DNA of 27,656 nt from a virus: the IMG/VR virus record IMGVR_UViG_3300020438_000218, positions 1 to 27,656 of that record; one strand, 5' to 3'. Of the stretch, positions 21,860 to 27,656 are shown piece after piece. Each line of letters begins with the position of its first letter. Positions within the stretch are counted from its first letter, which is position 1. The position numbers and the translations under genes are program-made. The notes beneath the pieces were generated by a model. That model did no database searches. It worked only from the letters and a program-made list of their open reading frames with translations, and had not been told where the DNA came from.

Positions 21860-22054
21860 ATGATCACGTCACCGACAGTCTTCCTGGTGGGAAGCCTGTC
21901 TGCCATCGCAACTGTCGTGGCACTGTTGATCCCTTCCAAGGTGATTCCAGACCAGGATGGCTATGAGCATTGCATTCAGTTGCATCCAGACAGGTATTGC
22001 AGGATTGCAAACGGTTTCCATGTTGAGCCGTTACAAAAGCCGCTTGACAGGTAG
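21860..22054 (+). CDS. small membrane or exported protein, 64 aa
   Basis: AGGAG (21847-21851) lies eight bases before the ATG at 21860, which decides the start over an earlier ATG at 21803. The product has an N-terminal hydrophobic segment (TVFLVGSLSAIATVVALLI, about 6-24), then a short polar domain with two Cys (YEHCIQLHPDRYCRIANGFH). It may be a one-span membrane protein facing the periplasm with a disulfide, or have a signal anchor. Function unknown. It opens the accessory block. Confidence 0.6.
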   Translation: MITSPTVFLVGSLSAIATVVALLIPSKVIPDQDGYEHCIQLHPDRYCRIANGFHVEPLQKPLDR

Positions 22055-22118: not shown

Positions 22119-22520
22119 ATGGCCAACGCTCATTTTTACGTCACTCGACGAGCTGCTGATGCGCTTGGTGTGACTGTCATCACCACATTGCAGCATTGCG
22201 TGTTGGTCAGAACTGATCGCGGACCTCGCTTCATGGGTCGCAGTAAGTTTGACCAGTGGGAAGTAGCGCAGCGCTTGAATCGCGCTCGGCATTGCTCCGT
22301 CAGGATAGTCAGGACAAATGCCTGGGAAGTTGAAGATCCCAGCACCAAGAGTGGGCTGCACACTGTCACATGCACTGGAGCGCATTCGGCTGGCATTGAT
22401 GGCAGATGGCAATGCACCTGCACTGATGCACACTTCATGATCGAACGAGGCCAGACGCCATGTTGCAAGCATGTGCTGGCTGCTCAAGAAGCTTGTTCAA
22501 CAGTTTGTGCAACAAGATGA
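22119..22520 (+). CDS. SWIM zinc-finger protein, 133 aa
   Basis: The C-terminal part contains RWQCTCTDAHFMIERGQ followed by TPCCKHVLAAQ, which gives the SWIM pattern C-x-C ... C-x-H (zinc ligands in WQCTC and in CKH). SWIM fingers bind DNA or proteins. The N-terminal region (HFYVTRRAADALGVTVIT, LQHCVLVRTDRG) is alpha/beta and unassigned. The start may be 22080 (146 aa) or 22119; the second gives a natural MANAHFYVTRRAADALG opening. In bacterial genomes SWIM proteins occur beside MoxR ATPases and VWA proteins (for example the E. coli yeh genes), and a MoxR-like gene lies 0.5 kb downstream here. It overlaps the next gene by ATGA. Confidence 0.75.
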   Translation: MANAHFYVTRRAADALGVTVITTLQHCVLVRTDRGPRFMGRSKFDQWEVAQRLNRARHCSVRIVRTNAWEVEDPSTKSGLHTVTCTGAHSAGIDGRWQCTCTDAHFMIERGQTPCCKHVLAAQEACSTVCATR

Positions 22521-22822
22521 AAAGGAAAACCCCTCGGCGTAGAGCAGGTGCGTTTGATCGCTTCCTGTCGTTTCAAGTGGACAGTGAAGGCAGTCGAGTG
22601 CTTTCTCGCGATCCCATTTCAGTGCATGACGAAATTGAATATATACGTGAACAAAACGAACGAGCCAATCGGGCTCGCGTTGTCCGCATGGAACGTGAGC
22701 TGGTGCGTCAAAAGTTGCGTGAGCAGCAAGTGCTTGCAAAGGCTGCGCTAGATGCTGAATACAGACGCATGATTACAGAAGCCATGCAACAAGGATTCTT
22801 GGCTAACGAAGAACCCTCCTAG
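22517..22822 (+). CDS. basic coiled-coil protein, 101 aa
   Basis: The ATG at 22517 overlaps the SWIM gene stop (ATGA). The N-terminus is strongly basic (MKRKTPRRRAGAFDRFL). From about residue 38 it is a long helix with many Arg and Glu (HDEIEYIREQNERANRARVV, ERELVRQKLREQQVLAKAAL), ending EAMQQGFLANEEPS. It may bind nucleic acid or act as an adaptor between the SWIM and ATPase proteins, but no family is recognised. Confidence 0.62.
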   Translation: MKRKTPRRRAGAFDRFLSFQVDSEGSRVLSRDPISVHDEIEYIREQNERANRARVVRMERELVRQKLREQQVLAKAALDAEYRRMITEAMQQGFLANEEPS

Positions 22823-22826
22823 CCCT

Positions 22827-22862
22827 CCGCAGCGTCCGCAGCGTCCGCAGCGTCCGCAGCGT
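22827..22862 (+). repeat. four tandem copies of the 9-bp unit CCGCAGCGT
   Basis: Four perfect back-to-back copies follow the stop at 22822 and precede the MoxR promoter region. It is a GC-rich microsatellite in non-coding DNA. Confidence 0.9.
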
Positions 22863-22936
22863 CGAACGAAATTAAAGCCTGCCAGGTGGTGAAAGCAGCC
22901 GCCTAAACAACTGTCACAACCTTGTCAAAAAAAACC

Positions 22937-22966
22937 TTGACAGGGCTTTCTGGCCTCCTGTACCTT
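22937..22966 (+). promoter_or_regulatory. promoter candidate upstream of MoxR gene (TTGACAGGGC element)
   Basis: TTGACA (22937-22942) with TACCTT (22961-22966) 18 bases later; the -10 keeps the key T, A and final T. CTTGACAGGGC recurs at 24306 and 25510. Confidence 0.35.
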
Positions 22967-23020
22967 TCATGGTGTCGAGGTCAGCGATGGCCGCGACGGG
23001 TACAAATCTCCAGCAATCTC

Positions 23021-24277
23021 ATGACAGTCTCCCACTTCCCCCTCATCCAAAACCTCCTGACAGAGGCCCTGCACAGCCGCAACGACAACGGCGACATGCC
23101 TGATGGTGCCGGTGCTGTCAGCAGCATGAGCGGTGAACTTCGCACTGCAGCTCGCAGACTCGCCAAGGAACTGGGCTTTGATAGCGCCACTGTCGGCAGC
23201 AGCGTCCTCAAGAGCATCCTCGCCTGTGGCGCTCAGCACGGCCCCTCCATGATGGTTGAGCGCTACGCACAAGGCTTCAGCGGCGTCGAAGAAGCTGTCG
23301 AAGAGGCTCCTCAAAGACATCTTGCTGTGCTGCCAGAGCGTGAAGCTGAGCAGCCTTCTGTTCAAGCTGCTGTTTCTGCAGGCAAGCAAGCCGTCATTCA
23401 GCAGATGCAAGAGCTGATGGCTCAAGCCCTGGCTCCTGACAACACTGCCTCCGGCATCACTGAGAAGGAGGTCATAGCCCTGATCGAAACCTACGCTCAC
23501 AAGCCTGCTGAGAAGCACATCATTGTTTCCTTGCCTGGTGGTAAGCGTGACATGGGCGAGAAGCTGGTCCATGAGCAGTTTGATTCAGTACTCAAGGCAG
23601 TAGCTGCTGACGTGGCTGTCATGCTCGTTGGCCCTGCCGGTTCCGGCAAGACCACCTTGTGTGAGCAGGTGGCTGAAGCTCTCGACCTTCGCTTCTACTT
23701 CACAGGTGCTGTCGCCTCTGAATACAAGCTGAGTGGCTTTGTCGATGCTCAAGGCCGTGTGGTCAGCACTGCTTTCAGGGATGCCTACACCAACGGTGGC
23801 TTGTTCTTGTTCGACGAGGTGGACGCTTCCATGCCCCAGGCGATCATGGCCTTCAACGCTGCCCTGGCAAACGGCCACTGCGACTTCCCTGGTGACACTG
23901 AGCCCACCAAGCGCCACCCTGACTTCAGAGTGATCGCTGCTGCCAACACCTTCGGTCGTGGCGCTGATCGTCAGTACGTTGGGCGCAACCAGCTCGATGC
24001 CGCTTCCCTGGACCGTTTCATCGTTGTCAACATGGACTACGACAACGTCCTGGAGCGAGCCCTGGCTGGCAACCGCGACTGGACCAAGCGTGTGCAGCGC
24101 ATCCGTCGCGAGATCCAGAAGCAGCAGGTTCGCCACATCGTCAGCCCTCGCGCCTCCATCCAAGGTGCCAAGCTGCTGGCTGCTGGCTTCTCTGTTGATG
24201 AGGTGCTTGAGGCAACTGTCTGGAAGGGTCTGGATGTAGACACCAAGAGCCGCATCACTGCCGCCATCAGCGGCTGA
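23021..24277 (+). CDS. MoxR/CobS-like AAA+ ATPase, 418 aa
   Basis: The AAA+ module is complete. Counted from the ATG at 23021 they are: Walker A GPAGSGKTT (204-212), Walker B LFLFDEVD (261-268), sensor-1 AAANTFG (Asn309) and an Arg finger in LDRF (Arg332). The motifs AYTNGGLFLFDEVD and RHPDFRVIAAANTFGRGAD resemble the MoxR/CobS branch, remodelling ATPases that usually work with a VWA-domain partner. The first 170 residues are a helical, Ala/Glu-rich extension with no known domain. The frame is open from a TTG at 22922, but that extension overlaps the promoter region. GC content is clearly higher than in the tail genes. The next gene may encode the partner. Confidence 0.85.
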   Translation: MTVSHFPLIQNLLTEALHSRNDNGDMPDGAGAVSSMSGELRTAARRLAKELGFDSATVGSSVLKSILACGAQHGPSMMVERYAQGFSGVEEAVEEAPQRHLAVLPEREAEQPSVQAAVSAGKQAVIQQMQELMAQALAPDNTASGITEKEVIALIETYAHKPAEKHIIVSLPGGKRDMGEKLVHEQFDSVLKAVAADVAVMLVGPAGSGKTTLCEQVAEALDLRFYFTGAVASEYKLSGFVDAQGRVVSTAFRDAYTNGGLFLFDEVDASMPQAIMAFNAALANGHCDFPGDTEPTKRHPDFRVIAAANTFGRGADRQYVGRNQLDAASLDRFIVVNMDYDNVLERALAGNRDWTKRVQRIRREIQKQQVRHIVSPRASIQGAKLLAAGFSVDEVLEATVWKGLDVDTKSRITAAISG

Positions 24278-24287
24278 CAAGCCGAAG

Positions 24288-24299
24288 TATATATATATA
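24288..24299. repeat. TATATATATATA run after MoxR gene
   Basis: Six TA units lie 11 bases after the stop at 24277. With CTGACA (24274-24279) upstream it could act as a -10 region for the next gene, but spacing is poor. Similar AT runs occur at about 18633 and 25532. Confidence 0.5.
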
Positions 24300-24312
24300 C
24301 CGATTCTTGACA

Positions 24313-24341
24313 GGGCCTTGCCAAACCAGCAAGGCCCGTTT
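24313..24341 (+). terminator. hairpin after MoxR gene, probable terminator
   Basis: GGGCCTTG (24313-24320) and CAAGGCCC (24330-24337) form a perfect 8-bp GC-rich stem with a 9-base loop, followed by GTTT. It starts directly after a TTGACA. It may attenuate transcription between the MoxR and VWA-like genes. Confidence 0.6.
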
Positions 24342-24397
24342 ACCTTTGCATTGTTCCTGGAGACAGGGGCAAATGCTTCTCTTCTTTGGTTTCAACC

Positions 24398-25324
24398 ATG
24401 ACAACCACGTATTCAGAACCAGTTCATCAGCGCATCGAGCAGTCTCGCGGCAGCGGTCGCAGTCGTTCCATAACCCATCGCTACTGGTTCGATGGCTTAA
24501 TGCAGGTCACTGCCTGGGCTGGCGACTTGGACGCCAAGCGTTGGTCCATGCAATCCAGCCACACTGAAGGCACCGAGCGAAAGCGTTTCGCTGGCACTAA
24601 GTCCTTCCCTGAAGCTGCCAAGCTTGTCAACAAAGGCTGGAAAAAGGGTCGCTCCCAGTTGGTTTCTCAAGTCGAGACTCTTGCTCTTAAAAAAGATCTA
24701 GTGTCGGCTCCATCTTTTCTCTACGACGTTGCAGGTGCTCGCCCTGAAGTGCCTCTGGCCGTAGCTGGTGATCCTTGCTGTATGTGGGATGTCAATCCTG
24801 TCATGGAGAGCAAGGCTCCCACTTATCGCTTGTTTATCAATATATCTGCCGCTGCAAAATGGGAGGCAAATCAACTAATGAACTGGGGCGCCTGCATCCT
24901 GAGCGTTGTAGACAGCCTGGAGGCTCAAGGGGATTGCAGCATTGAAATCAATATTTGTCAGGCCAATACTGACGGCAAAGGACTTAACAGTGAGTTCATC
25001 ATTCGCCTCAAAGATGCCGGTCAGCACTTGGATTTTGATGTAATGGCTTTCGCCATTGCTCACCCTTCAATGCTCAGACGAGTGATGTTCGGCTGCATGG
25101 AACGGGTGGTGGCTGACGATGCAGAAGATCGCATGGGTTACGGGTATGGCCGGCCTGCTGAGCTGGATCTTGACGTACTGGGCGGGGATCTCTACATCCC
25201 AGGCATTGGCAATTGCGGCATTCCTCAACGTGCTTTCAATGGATCCATTGAAGATCTGTTCCCCAGAGTGATGGATGGCTTCAAGCGCCTGATGGATGGT
25301 CGTTCGTTTTCAGGAGACTCATGA
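24398..25324 (+). CDS. MoxR partner candidate with possible degenerate VWA-like domain, 308 aa
   Basis: The ATG at 24398 is four codons after a TTG (24386) and is the likely start. Residues 1-105 are polar and Ser/Arg-rich. The segment DVAGARPEVPLAVAGDPCCMW leads into YRLFINISAAAKWEANQLMN, a strand followed by a helix, then CSIEINI, FIIRLKDAGQHLDFDVMAFA and HPSMLRRVMFG. This alternation looks like a Rossmann-type VWA fold in which the metal site DxSxS is replaced by NISAA, so metal binding may be lost. Phage proteins of this pattern are unassigned. Its location after a MoxR ATPase supports a partner role. The fold is an inference. The stop overlaps the next ATG (ATGA). Confidence 0.65.
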   Translation: MTTTYSEPVHQRIEQSRGSGRSRSITHRYWFDGLMQVTAWAGDLDAKRWSMQSSHTEGTERKRFAGTKSFPEAAKLVNKGWKKGRSQLVSQVETLALKKDLVSAPSFLYDVAGARPEVPLAVAGDPCCMWDVNPVMESKAPTYRLFINISAAAKWEANQLMNWGACILSVVDSLEAQGDCSIEINICQANTDGKGLNSEFIIRLKDAGQHLDFDVMAFAIAHPSMLRRVMFGCMERVVADDAEDRMGYGYGRPAELDLDVLGGDLYIPGIGNCGIPQRAFNGSIEDLFPRVMDGFKRLMDGRSFSGDS

Positions 25325-25524
25325 GCAAACGAAACCTGCATTCAAGAGCCAGAGCCGCCGTTGAGGTGGCTCAGCGCTATGGCTTCTGCCTGGTCAGATG
25401 CAAGCGGCACCTGGTGTTCAGACATCCTTCTGGTGTCCAGTCCGTCACCTCACTCACAACCAGCGACAGGAGGTCTCTCATGAACTTTGAACACGATCTC
25501 CGTCGCAAGCTTGACAGGGCCTGA
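25321..25524 (+). CDS. HicA-like small basic protein, 67 aa
   Basis: The product (MSKRNLHSRARAAVEVAQRY, then GFCLVRCKRHLVFRHPSGVQ, then LTTSDRRSLMNFEHDLRRKL) resembles the YcfA/HicA fold: a first helix, a 'GF..vR.k.H.vfrhp.G' hairpin and a C-terminal helix. HicA toxins cut mRNA and use a His in the GSH position; here His30 occupies it as KRH. No HicB-like antitoxin is seen next to it. It might be a free-standing RNA-binding protein. It overlaps the VWA-like gene by ATGA. Confidence 0.6.
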   Translation: MSKRNLHSRARAAVEVAQRYGFCLVRCKRHLVFRHPSGVQSVTSLTTSDRRSLMNFEHDLRRKLDRA

Positions 25525-25586: not shown

Positions 25587-25766
25587 ATGACAAGCTCAAC
25601 TTTTCGTCCATATCAAGTCATCCGTCTTCAGGACGATGGCGAAGGCTTCGATGTGCTGGCTTCTTACAGCACTTATGAAGCTGCTGATGACCGCCTGGAG
25701 CATTGGTGGACTCGTTTTCCACATGCTTGGATCGAAATCAAGCACGGCAACCTTCGTTACGCATGA
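25587..25766 (+). CDS. unknown small protein, 59 aa
   Basis: The ATG at 25587 opens a frame to a TGA at 25766, 48 bases after the predicted -10. The product is MTSSTFRPYQVIRLQDDGEG, then FDVLASYSTYEAADDRLEHW and a strand ending IEIKHGNLRYA. The 'Y.V......g.vlasy.tyeeAd...e.w....p.awieI' pattern is typical of a small alpha/beta phage domain with no known role. The next gene begins inside its stop (ATGA). Confidence 0.62.
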   Translation: MTSSTFRPYQVIRLQDDGEGFDVLASYSTYEAADDRLEHWWTRFPHAWIEIKHGNLRYA

Positions 25767-26331: not shown

Positions 26332-26634
26332 ATGCGCTACGTCACTCACTATCAAGACAACGGACCTTACTTTTCTCCAACGACAGATAAGTGGGAAATT
26401 CATTGCTTGCGTGACCTGCTGTTCCACGTTCGTCGATGCATGGAAGATCACGATGATTACATTGCTGTCTACGATGACGACAGATGCTCAGGCATCTGGA
26501 GTCGTGAGTCTGACATCCAAAGCGATGGTGAAGGCGGCATGGAGCCTGCTGGCGAGTGGTACGAGATGCACCGACCAAATAGCGTCAGCCCTGGCCTCTG
26601 GAACATAATGGAGAAAAGGTGTCGTGCAATGTGA
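26332..26634 (+). CDS. unknown acidic protein, 100 aa
   Basis: The product starts MRYVTHYQDNGPYFSPTTDK and contains HCLRDLLFHVRRCMEDHDDY, IAVYDDDRCSGIWSRESD and a Gly/Glu-rich stretch (DGEGGMEPAGEWYEMHR). It has four Cys without a finger spacing. No family is recognised. It overlaps the next gene. Confidence 0.6.
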   Translation: MRYVTHYQDNGPYFSPTTDKWEIHCLRDLLFHVRRCMEDHDDYIAVYDDDRCSGIWSRESDIQSDGEGGMEPAGEWYEMHRPNSVSPGLWNIMEKRCRAM

Positions 26635-27167
26635 ACTTTTACAGACTTGGAAAAGTTGAAGAGATGCCAGGGTTCAGCCCTGGCTCTTTTATTACGAGCT
26701 ACGGAGAGACAATCGACAATGAGTTCAAAGGCATTAAGTACTGCAACGCTTTTGTTTCATTTTCAAATACATACAGTGATTTCGTGTCTTTGGATGCATT
26801 TAAAAATGCACGAAAAACAGTGATGACGATCAACAGGGAAATACCCCCGCACACGGATAGTGGCGTCCAATGTGTGATCAACATCTACACGCGAACCAGC
26901 AATTGTCTCACGCAGTTTTATGACATTGTGGGCGAGCCTGATGGGTTTCAAATAGAGAATCAGACTGACGGACAGATTTTTGATCTCGACGCCCTGGTGC
27001 CTGCCGACAGTTTTGTGGCTGAAGTTGGCGATGTGATCCTGCTGAATGTCAAAGCGCCACATTCTGTCAAACCTCTGACAAGTGCCCCGGTGGATCGTGA
27101 GGCACTTTGTTTCCAGAGCAGGGCGCTGTCCTTCCATCAAGTGCTTGCATTGCTTCAAAAGGGATAG
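26619..27167 (+). CDS. 2OG-Fe(II) oxygenase-like protein, 182 aa (GTG start)
   Basis: The double-stranded beta-helix iron motif is visible: PPHTDSG gives His78 and Asp80, and KAPHSVKPL gives His148, the third iron ligand. Arg160 in VDREALCFQ could bind 2-oxoglutarate. Such dioxygenases hydroxylate proteins, nucleobases or small molecules and are common in cyanophages with substrate unknown. GGAGA (26610-26614) precedes the GTG at 26619; a second GTG at 26631 overlaps the upstream stop and could be used instead. A strong hairpin follows the stop. Iron-binding residues are seen; the activity is inferred. Confidence 0.75.
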   Translation: MSCNVNFYRLGKVEEMPGFSPGSFITSYGETIDNEFKGIKYCNAFVSFSNTYSDFVSLDAFKNARKTVMTINREIPPHTDSGVQCVINIYTRTSNCLTQFYDIVGEPDGFQIENQTDGQIFDLDALVPADSFVAEVGDVILLNVKAPHSVKPLTSAPVDREALCFQSRALSFHQVLALLQKG

Positions 27168-27253: not shown

Positions 27254-27394
27254 ATGTCTGACTCTCCTAAATTCGGTTTTGTTGCTTTCGCTGAAGCTTG
27301 GAACGGTCGCCTTGCGATGATGGGCTTCGTCATCGGAATTGGCACTGAGCTGCTCACTGGGCAGGGTATCCTGGCTCAGCTTGGCATTGGCTGA
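27254..27394 (+). CDS. hli: high-light-inducible protein (Hli), 46 aa
   Basis: The product MSDSPKFGFVAFAEAWNGRL, then AMMGFVIGIGTELLTGQG and ILAQLGIG, carries the chlorophyll-binding ELIP/Hlip motif AE.WNGR.AMmGF within one membrane helix. Hli proteins sit in the thylakoid membrane, bind chlorophyll and carotenoid, and help keep photosystem II working under stress. Cyanophages carry them to sustain energy supply during infection. The upstream open frame from 27107 overlaps the oxygenase gene and is not part of the protein. It has its own promoter-like sequence and is the last gene before the terminal repeats. Confidence 0.9.
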   Translation: MSDSPKFGFVAFAEAWNGRLAMMGFVIGIGTELLTGQGILAQLGIG

Positions 27395-27400
27395 TCAGAC

Positions 27401-27515
27401 CCGGCTGGAGGCGTATTTTGGAACCGGCTGGAGGCGTATCTAAGATCCGGCTGGGGTTGTATTTTGGATCCGGCTAGGGTCGTATTAAGGGTCCGGCTAG
27501 GGTCGTATTAATCAT
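27401..27515 (+). repeat. five 23-bp direct repeats (CCGGCT...GTATT type)
   Basis: CCGGCT starts at 27401, 27424, 27447, 27470 and 27493, an exact 23-bp period. Units read roughly CCGGCT(A/G)GGGTCGTATTAAGG with variation in the middle. A related pair lies at 20220 and 20241 (21-bp period). The array follows hli and precedes the palindrome array. Confidence 0.9.
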
Positions 27516-27526
27516 TTTTTACAAAA

Positions 27527-27548
27527 TTGTGTGACATAAAGCACACAA
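27527..27548. repeat. diverged palindrome in register with the 22-bp array
   Basis: TTGTGTG (27527-27533) and CACACAA (27542-27548) are perfect inverted arms around ACATAAAG. The centre (27537.5) is exactly 22 bp before the centre of the first GTATCATTTGATAC, and the central 16 bases match that repeat at 9 of 16 positions. Confidence 0.7.
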
Positions 27549-27551
27549 GCT

Positions 27552-27656
27552 TGTATCATTTGATACACGAGAATGTATCATTTGATACCTGACCTTGTAT
27601 CATTTGATACCTGACTTTGTATCATTTGATACACGAGAATGATGTATCATTTTTTA
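27552..27656. repeat. 22-bp-spaced array of palindromes GTATCA-TT-TGATAC, running off window edge
   Basis: Full copies lie at 27553-27566, 27575-27588, 27597-27610 and 27619-27632, each 22 bp apart; a fifth partial copy starts at 27644. Arms GTATCA and TGATAC are perfect, with spacers ACGAGAAT or CTGACYTT. A dimeric DNA-binding protein is the natural partner. Confidence 0.9.

Follow-up and report, generated by a model that had tools for sequence, protein, structure and literature searches.

In the maturation of nitric oxide reductase (NOR), the AAA+ ATPase NorQ is partnered by NorD, a protein with a VWA domain: a finger of the VWA protein (residues 403-448 of NorD) enters the pore of the AAA+ ring, and its C-terminus touches the ring (PMC13036017). 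Pairs of a MoxR-type ATPase and a vWA protein are on record from jumbo phages, haloviruses and Acidianus two-tailed virus (ATV) (PMC7824862, PMC7911831). Viral cobST clusters have also been described and were read as parts of a cobaltochelatase, the viral CobST proteins being proposed to use the CobN of the host (PMC8651126). MoxR-VWA pairs are thus already known in phages. The branch described here, in which the partner is a DUF7192 protein, is new, and we found no mention of DUF7192 in the literature searched. Our subject is IMG/VR record IMGVR_UViG_3300020438_000218, a 27.7-kb virus record of the S-CBS4-like cyanophage type (hereafter the window), in which a gene for a MoxR-clade, NorQ/CbbQ/CobS-like AAA+ ATPase (23021 to 24277, + strand) lies beside a DUF7192 gene (24398 to 25324, + strand). 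Very probably, the two products together make up a remodelling machine of the MoxR/VWA type, each forming one half of it. We favor this reading because the genes are almost always adjacent, the catalytic residues of the ATPase are kept, and the modelled folds resemble NorQ and NorD.

Loci were gathered from viral contigs through DUF7192 and through the AAA+ protein, and from bacterial and archaeal genomes through the AAA+ protein alone; duplicates were removed, and the two viral sets overlap. A partner lying within 4 kb on the same strand adjoins in 65 of the 69 viral loci found via DUF7192, in 65 of the 69 found via the ATPase and in 54 of the 55 bacterial-genome loci. All nine loci lacking a partner break off at a contig edge, or close to one, in the direction in which it would be expected, although for one of them (L150) this supposes the rarer, reversed gene order. 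Adjacency is kept across very different phages and on some bacterial chromosomes. Annotated phages with the pair are Rhizobium phage P106B, Tunturi_4, Staphylococcus phage qdsa002, Sinorhizobium phage phiM5, Mycobacterium phage Faith1 and Enterococcus phage CECAV_04, the last with the order reversed. Over 67 loci, the distances among AAA+ proteins correlate with those among their DUF7192 partners (r 0.69; none of 2000 permutations gave a value as high), and bacterial and viral copies are interleaved in the AAA+ tree. A neighbor search across the loci found no conserved third gene beside the pair, only lineage-specific neighbors. The pair is a real module, and the module consists of two genes. 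An earlier note on this DNA had raised the question whether a row of five genes keeps its order in other cyanophages; conservation holds for the AAA+ and DUF7192 genes and does not extend to the SWIM-finger, basic and HicA-like genes around them.

The AAA+ protein matches Pfam AAA_5 (E 3e-12; both AAA_5 and AAA score above the Pfam cut-off) and phrog_249 (E 1e-57), a family that PHROG labels "porphyrin biosynthesis". Fourteen positions are invariant in an alignment of 71 sequences. They include G204, G209 and K210 of the Walker A motif GPAGSGKT (residues 204-211, 23630 to 23653, + strand, as for all residues below), the Walker B pair D265 and E266 (23813 to 23818), N309 (23945 to 23947), whose position suggests the sensor-1 asparagine, and two arginines that by position are the probable arginine finger (R332, 24014 to 24016) and the probable sensor-2 arginine (R377, 24149 to 24151). 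The AAA+ motifs noticed earlier in this gene are thereby confirmed. With the AlphaFold model (predicted local distance difference test score, pLDDT, 89.3), the top Foldseek match is NorQ (E 8e-14), and VIA-align returns CbbQ2 (Z 21.0) and NorQ (Z 20.5). NorQ and CbbQ head both structure searches, with Z values of 18 to 21 where the next group has 16, which places the protein in the MoxR clade. This clade is marked by inserts in helix 2 and before sensor 2; judged by their positions in the model, short strands at about residues 240-241 and 247-248 could correspond to the beta-hairpin in helix 2. By sequence, the nearest solved protein is CobS (E 4e-20, 76 bits), followed by single AAA domains of midasin (41 to 51 bits) and by CbbQ/NorQ. 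Midasin itself was rejected as the nearest solved sequence, since its score sums several AAA domains that singly reach about 51 bits against the 76 of CobS; PADLOC matches to the ATPase (IetA and others) were set aside as weak and generic to AAA+ proteins.

The partner belongs to DUF7192 (PF23822; 118.4 bits against a Pfam cut-off of 27, E 4.7e-34) and to phrog_1909 (E 6e-35), both families of unknown function. Its AlphaFold model, built on 81 aligned sequences, has a pLDDT of 91.6 and a predicted template-modelling score of 0.86. In a Foldseek search of the PDB, the VWA domain of NorD in NorQ-NorD complexes came first (E 2e-4 and 2e-3, probability 0.99), with nothing else significant. VIA-align placed NorD (Z 8.7 and 8.2) ahead of the metal ion-dependent adhesion site (MIDAS) domain of Rea1 (7.4), below which the rows that could be identified were VWF A1, Ku, Sec23/24 and other VWA-type folds. 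In a library of viral structures the model retrieved DUF7192 proteins, and then phage CobT-like and VWFA proteins. No significant relative was found among PDB sequences, so the link to VWA comes from fold comparison alone. The scores themselves are modest; we make the VWA-like assignment because many VWA matches agree and because of the partner gene. The two models were derived from separate alignments, and together they recovered both chains of one solved complex, NorQ-NorD.

A VWA domain with an intact MIDAS carries DxSxS plus a further Thr and Asp. In its place the window protein has N148-x-S150-x-A152 (NISAA, 24839 to 24853), and, judged on the DxSxS part, only 2 of the 81 relatives retain DxS/TxS/T; position 148 is N in 30, D in 14, S in 10 and A in 8. 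The bacterial copies are degenerate as well. On its modelled structure, then, the protein has a VWA-like fold in which the metal site is degenerate. The earlier note had suspected as much from the NISAA strand, and the fold check that has now been run on the protein agrees with the alignment; its proposal that this protein partners the MoxR-clade ATPase is likewise borne out, by the linkage and by the NorD and NorQ matches. Two other segments stand out: the family motif HPSMLRR (residues 222-228, 25061 to 25081), whose R227 is invariant in the 81 sequences, and a stretch before strand 1 (residues ~107-131, 24716 to 24791) with G113, G124, P126 and M129 near-invariant. Comparison of aligned ranges with the NorD finger makes the latter stretch a candidate for the element that would enter the AAA+ pore. 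In the P106B type of locus (L002, 6198 to 7376, and similar), DUF7192 carries a fused N-terminal extension whose match to DUF5710 is weak and below cut-off.

The NorQ-NorD system thus resembles the present pair in both models and in its layout as separate neighboring genes. It differs in that the DUF7192 protein has a degenerate MIDAS and lacks an N-terminal domain of the size found in NorD, and no NOR genes lie near the pair. In Rea1/midasin, too, a MIDAS (VWA) domain goes with an AAA+ ring, and the protein is matched by both models and, through its single AAA domains, by sequence; however, it is a single giant protein of eukaryotes whose MIDAS is intact, whereas the present pair consists of two small genes.

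We envision the following mechanism. The AAA+ protein would form a hexameric ring in which the DUF7192 protein would sit as an adaptor that selects the target; ATP hydrolysis would turn or pull this adaptor, and the target would be remodelled as a result. Since nearly all of the family has lost the metal-site aspartate, the target probably binds elsewhere on the protein and not through a metal-bridged MIDAS contact. In this phage we incline, with somewhat less than even confidence, towards an accessory, early-expressed machine acting on a host protein complex; counter-defence or host remodelling, as the earlier note had it, are possible roles. Virion assembly comes next, as a clearly weaker candidate, defence against other phages a little behind it, and metal-cofactor insertion would be rather improbable. 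The pair is indeed accessory in the S-CBS4-like lineage: it occupies the stretch between the SWIM gene and the gene matching 26332 in the window and three relatives (L008-L010), and is absent from backbone relatives whose genes run in the same order. The window contains four copies of CTTGACAGG, with which a sigma-70-like promoter would begin, where chance would give 0.28; they lie at 22043, 22936, 24306 and 25510 on the + strand, upstream of the SWIM, AAA+ and DUF7192 genes and of the gene at 25587. The copy before the AAA+ gene opens the promoter-like element CTTGACA...TACCTT (22936 to 22966), which recurs upstream of the AAA+ gene in L008, with similar elements in relatives; the promoter-like element before the DUF7192 gene (24306 to 24346) has a GC-rich inverted repeat overlapping it. 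In their sequence these elements look like host-type promoters.

Several points weigh against this picture. The best VIA-align score of the DUF7192 model, 8.7, exceeds only slightly the values of 7 to 8 that models lacking a clear match usually reach, and the model's TM-scores, at 0.27 to 0.29, are low. The correlation between the two trees is partly shared inheritance. Two cluster L mycobacteriophages break the pairing: CicholasNage (L004) has a DUF7192 gene and no AAA+ gene of this type in its record, and Faith1 (L202) has a second, unpaired DUF7192 copy besides its pair. The case for promoters is one of consensus sequence and nothing more, and how the roles are ranked is a matter of judgement.

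Among the alternatives, the one that survives best is a virion-assembly chaperone pair comparable to p618/p892 of ATV and to the role proposed for the MoxR-vWA proteins of the group 2.2 jumbo phages, although we regard it as unlikely. These precedents (PMC7824862, PMC7911831) speak for it, as does Rhizobium phage P106B, where tail and head genes surround the pair. The group 2.2 phages do have a MoxR AAA+ gene beside a vWA partner; there, however, the vWA domain is fused to a metallopeptidase, whereas here the partner is a short DUF7192 protein with no metal site. The pair is, moreover, accessory in the window's own lineage, being absent from same-order relatives, and no third gene is conserved beside it. 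It is also found on chromosomes in settings where no virion would be built (not every bacterial locus was screened for prophage genes): among dnaN and recA on a Saprospiraceae contig, and in Malacoplasma beside genes for adenylosuccinate synthetase, PlsY and a class II tRNA synthetase. The adenylosuccinate-synthetase family gene adjoins the pair in one locus of the Malacoplasma/Mycoplasma group (L246; Pfam E 2e-89), and four further Malacoplasma and Mycoplasma loci (L249-L252) have genes similar to it.

Slightly less probable still is a defence or superinfection-exclusion module shared by phages and bacteria. The pair sits in a variable slot, it is carried by phages and chromosomes whose copies interleave in the tree, and MoxR-vWA ternary conflict systems have been described (PMC7159879). 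Like RavA-ViaA, these systems couple a MoxR AAA+ protein to a vWA co-chaperone. The DUF7192 protein is not ViaA, however, and there was no sign of the third component by which the ternary systems are recognised, since no further gene is conserved beside the pair. PADLOC returned weak generic AAA+ matches and none to DUF7192. A TIR-domain gene lies near the pair in Tenacibaculum (L212, 2528 to 3310) and would suit a defensive role, but this is a single case, and one such neighbor makes no pattern.

The PHROG label itself suggests a CobS/CobT-type cobaltochelatase pair that would raise cobalamin supply through the host's CobN, a reading to which we give very little credence. In its favor, CobS is the nearest solved sequence to the ATPase, phrog_249 is shared with the CobS of cyanomyoviruses such as S-PM2, use of host CobN has been proposed for viral CobST (PMC8651126), and CobN does occur in cyanobacteria, being present in the control Synechococcus elongatus, so that a role there is possible. 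However, the ATPase falls far below the NCBIfam cut-off for CobS (TIGR01650; 33.5 against 558.55 bits), and its partner is neither CobT nor phrog_459. The S-PM2 CobS adjoins a phrog_459 "peptidase" that is much larger than DUF7192, and the DUF7192 profile had no significant match to that protein (one S-PM2 sequence was compared). The phrog_249 label therefore covers AAA+ genes with different partners, and a review had already raised the possibility that cyanophage cobS is no true homologue of cobS (PMC5083919). Furthermore, no match to CobN (PF02514) turned up in 20 of the 22 pair-carrying bacterial genomes, Mycoplasma-type genomes included, although several of the 22 are draft or metagenome-assembled and some absences may therefore be gaps. 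Cobalt chelation is unlikely as the general role of the pair.

The genes flanking the two-gene machine fall outside it. All five open reading frames that the earlier note assembled into one system are open on the + strand where it placed them, and the SWIM motif it saw in the first (22119 to 22520) is genuine: the finger CTC...CCKH, with CxC...CxH ligands, is invariant in 18 aligned homologues, even though the Pfam SWIM model, at 10.6 to 18.9 bits, does not reach its cut-off of 19.6 in either the window protein or its relatives. This gene is, however, collinear with the backbone of S-CBS4-type cyanophages that lack the pair, and 17 of 20 SWIM loci have neither the AAA+ nor the DUF7192 gene. 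The proposed likeness to the yeh genes of Escherichia coli, where SWIM, MoxR and VWA proteins are co-encoded, accordingly fails here, as does the place of SWIM in a common system with the other two. The basic, coiled-coil-like protein (22517 to 22822, + strand) has no meaningful family match in Pfam or PHROG; it occurs in the window and in L008 (65% match) and is missing between the SWIM and AAA+ genes of L009 and L010. The HicA-like protein (25321 to 25524, + strand; PADLOC HicA-like E 2.7e-8, phrog_2053 E 3e-8, no Pfam HicA match) is encoded by a gene whose start overlaps the end of the DUF7192 gene and which, outside the window, accompanies only the four cyanophage-type copies of the pair (L008-L010 and L014). 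Neither the basic nor the HicA-like gene can thus be upheld as a part of the system. The neighbor at 25587 has no family match in Pfam or PHROG, and no search was aimed at HicB. That SWIM, basic, AAA+, VWA-like and HicA-like proteins all act together, as their adjacency on one strand and the CTTGACAGG elements before the SWIM, AAA+, DUF7192 and 25587 genes might suggest, is the least credible of the readings considered, given the mostly pair-less SWIM loci, the relatives without the basic gene and the confinement of the HicA-like gene to close relatives and L014.

The primase/helicase of the window, a gene labelled RNase E and several small genes follow the order seen in S-CBS4 and related contigs, and a high-light-inducible protein (27254 to 27391; phrog_178, E 2e-10) is consistent with a cyanophage. 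A megablast search with positions 1-25000 found no near-identical record in the phage collection. A protein encoded at 26619 to 27167 carries an HTDSG motif reminiscent of 2-oxoglutarate oxygenases and has no significant Pfam or PHROG match. Two imperfect tandem arrays, with periods of ~23/46 and 22 bases, lie near the end of the window (27397 to 27641), and a perfect 9-base tandem repeat, TCCGCAGCG, is present in 4.2 copies between the basic and AAA+ genes (22826 to 22863).

Phage genes that carry the label cobS or "porphyrin biosynthesis" often pass for auxiliary metabolic genes of vitamin B12. For the branch paired with DUF7192 this label is doubtful, since the partner is VWA-like and CobN went undetected in most of the bacterial genomes that have the pair. 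The wide occurrence of the two genes side by side points instead to an unstudied molecular machine. Being a small two-gene system with a close solved relative, it puts the question within reach of experiment. It is tempting to speculate, and we do so tentatively, that DUF7192 is an unrecognised, metal-independent VWA-type co-chaperone, that part of what is called "porphyrin biosynthesis" is this pair, and that the pair is a widespread machine which moves between phages and chromosomes, those of Mycoplasma-type minimal genomes among them, and which would remodel a conserved cellular complex in the conflict between phage and host. Its presence in phages of Staphylococcus aureus, mycobacteria and cyanobacteria, as well as on bacterial chromosomes, suggests a common target.

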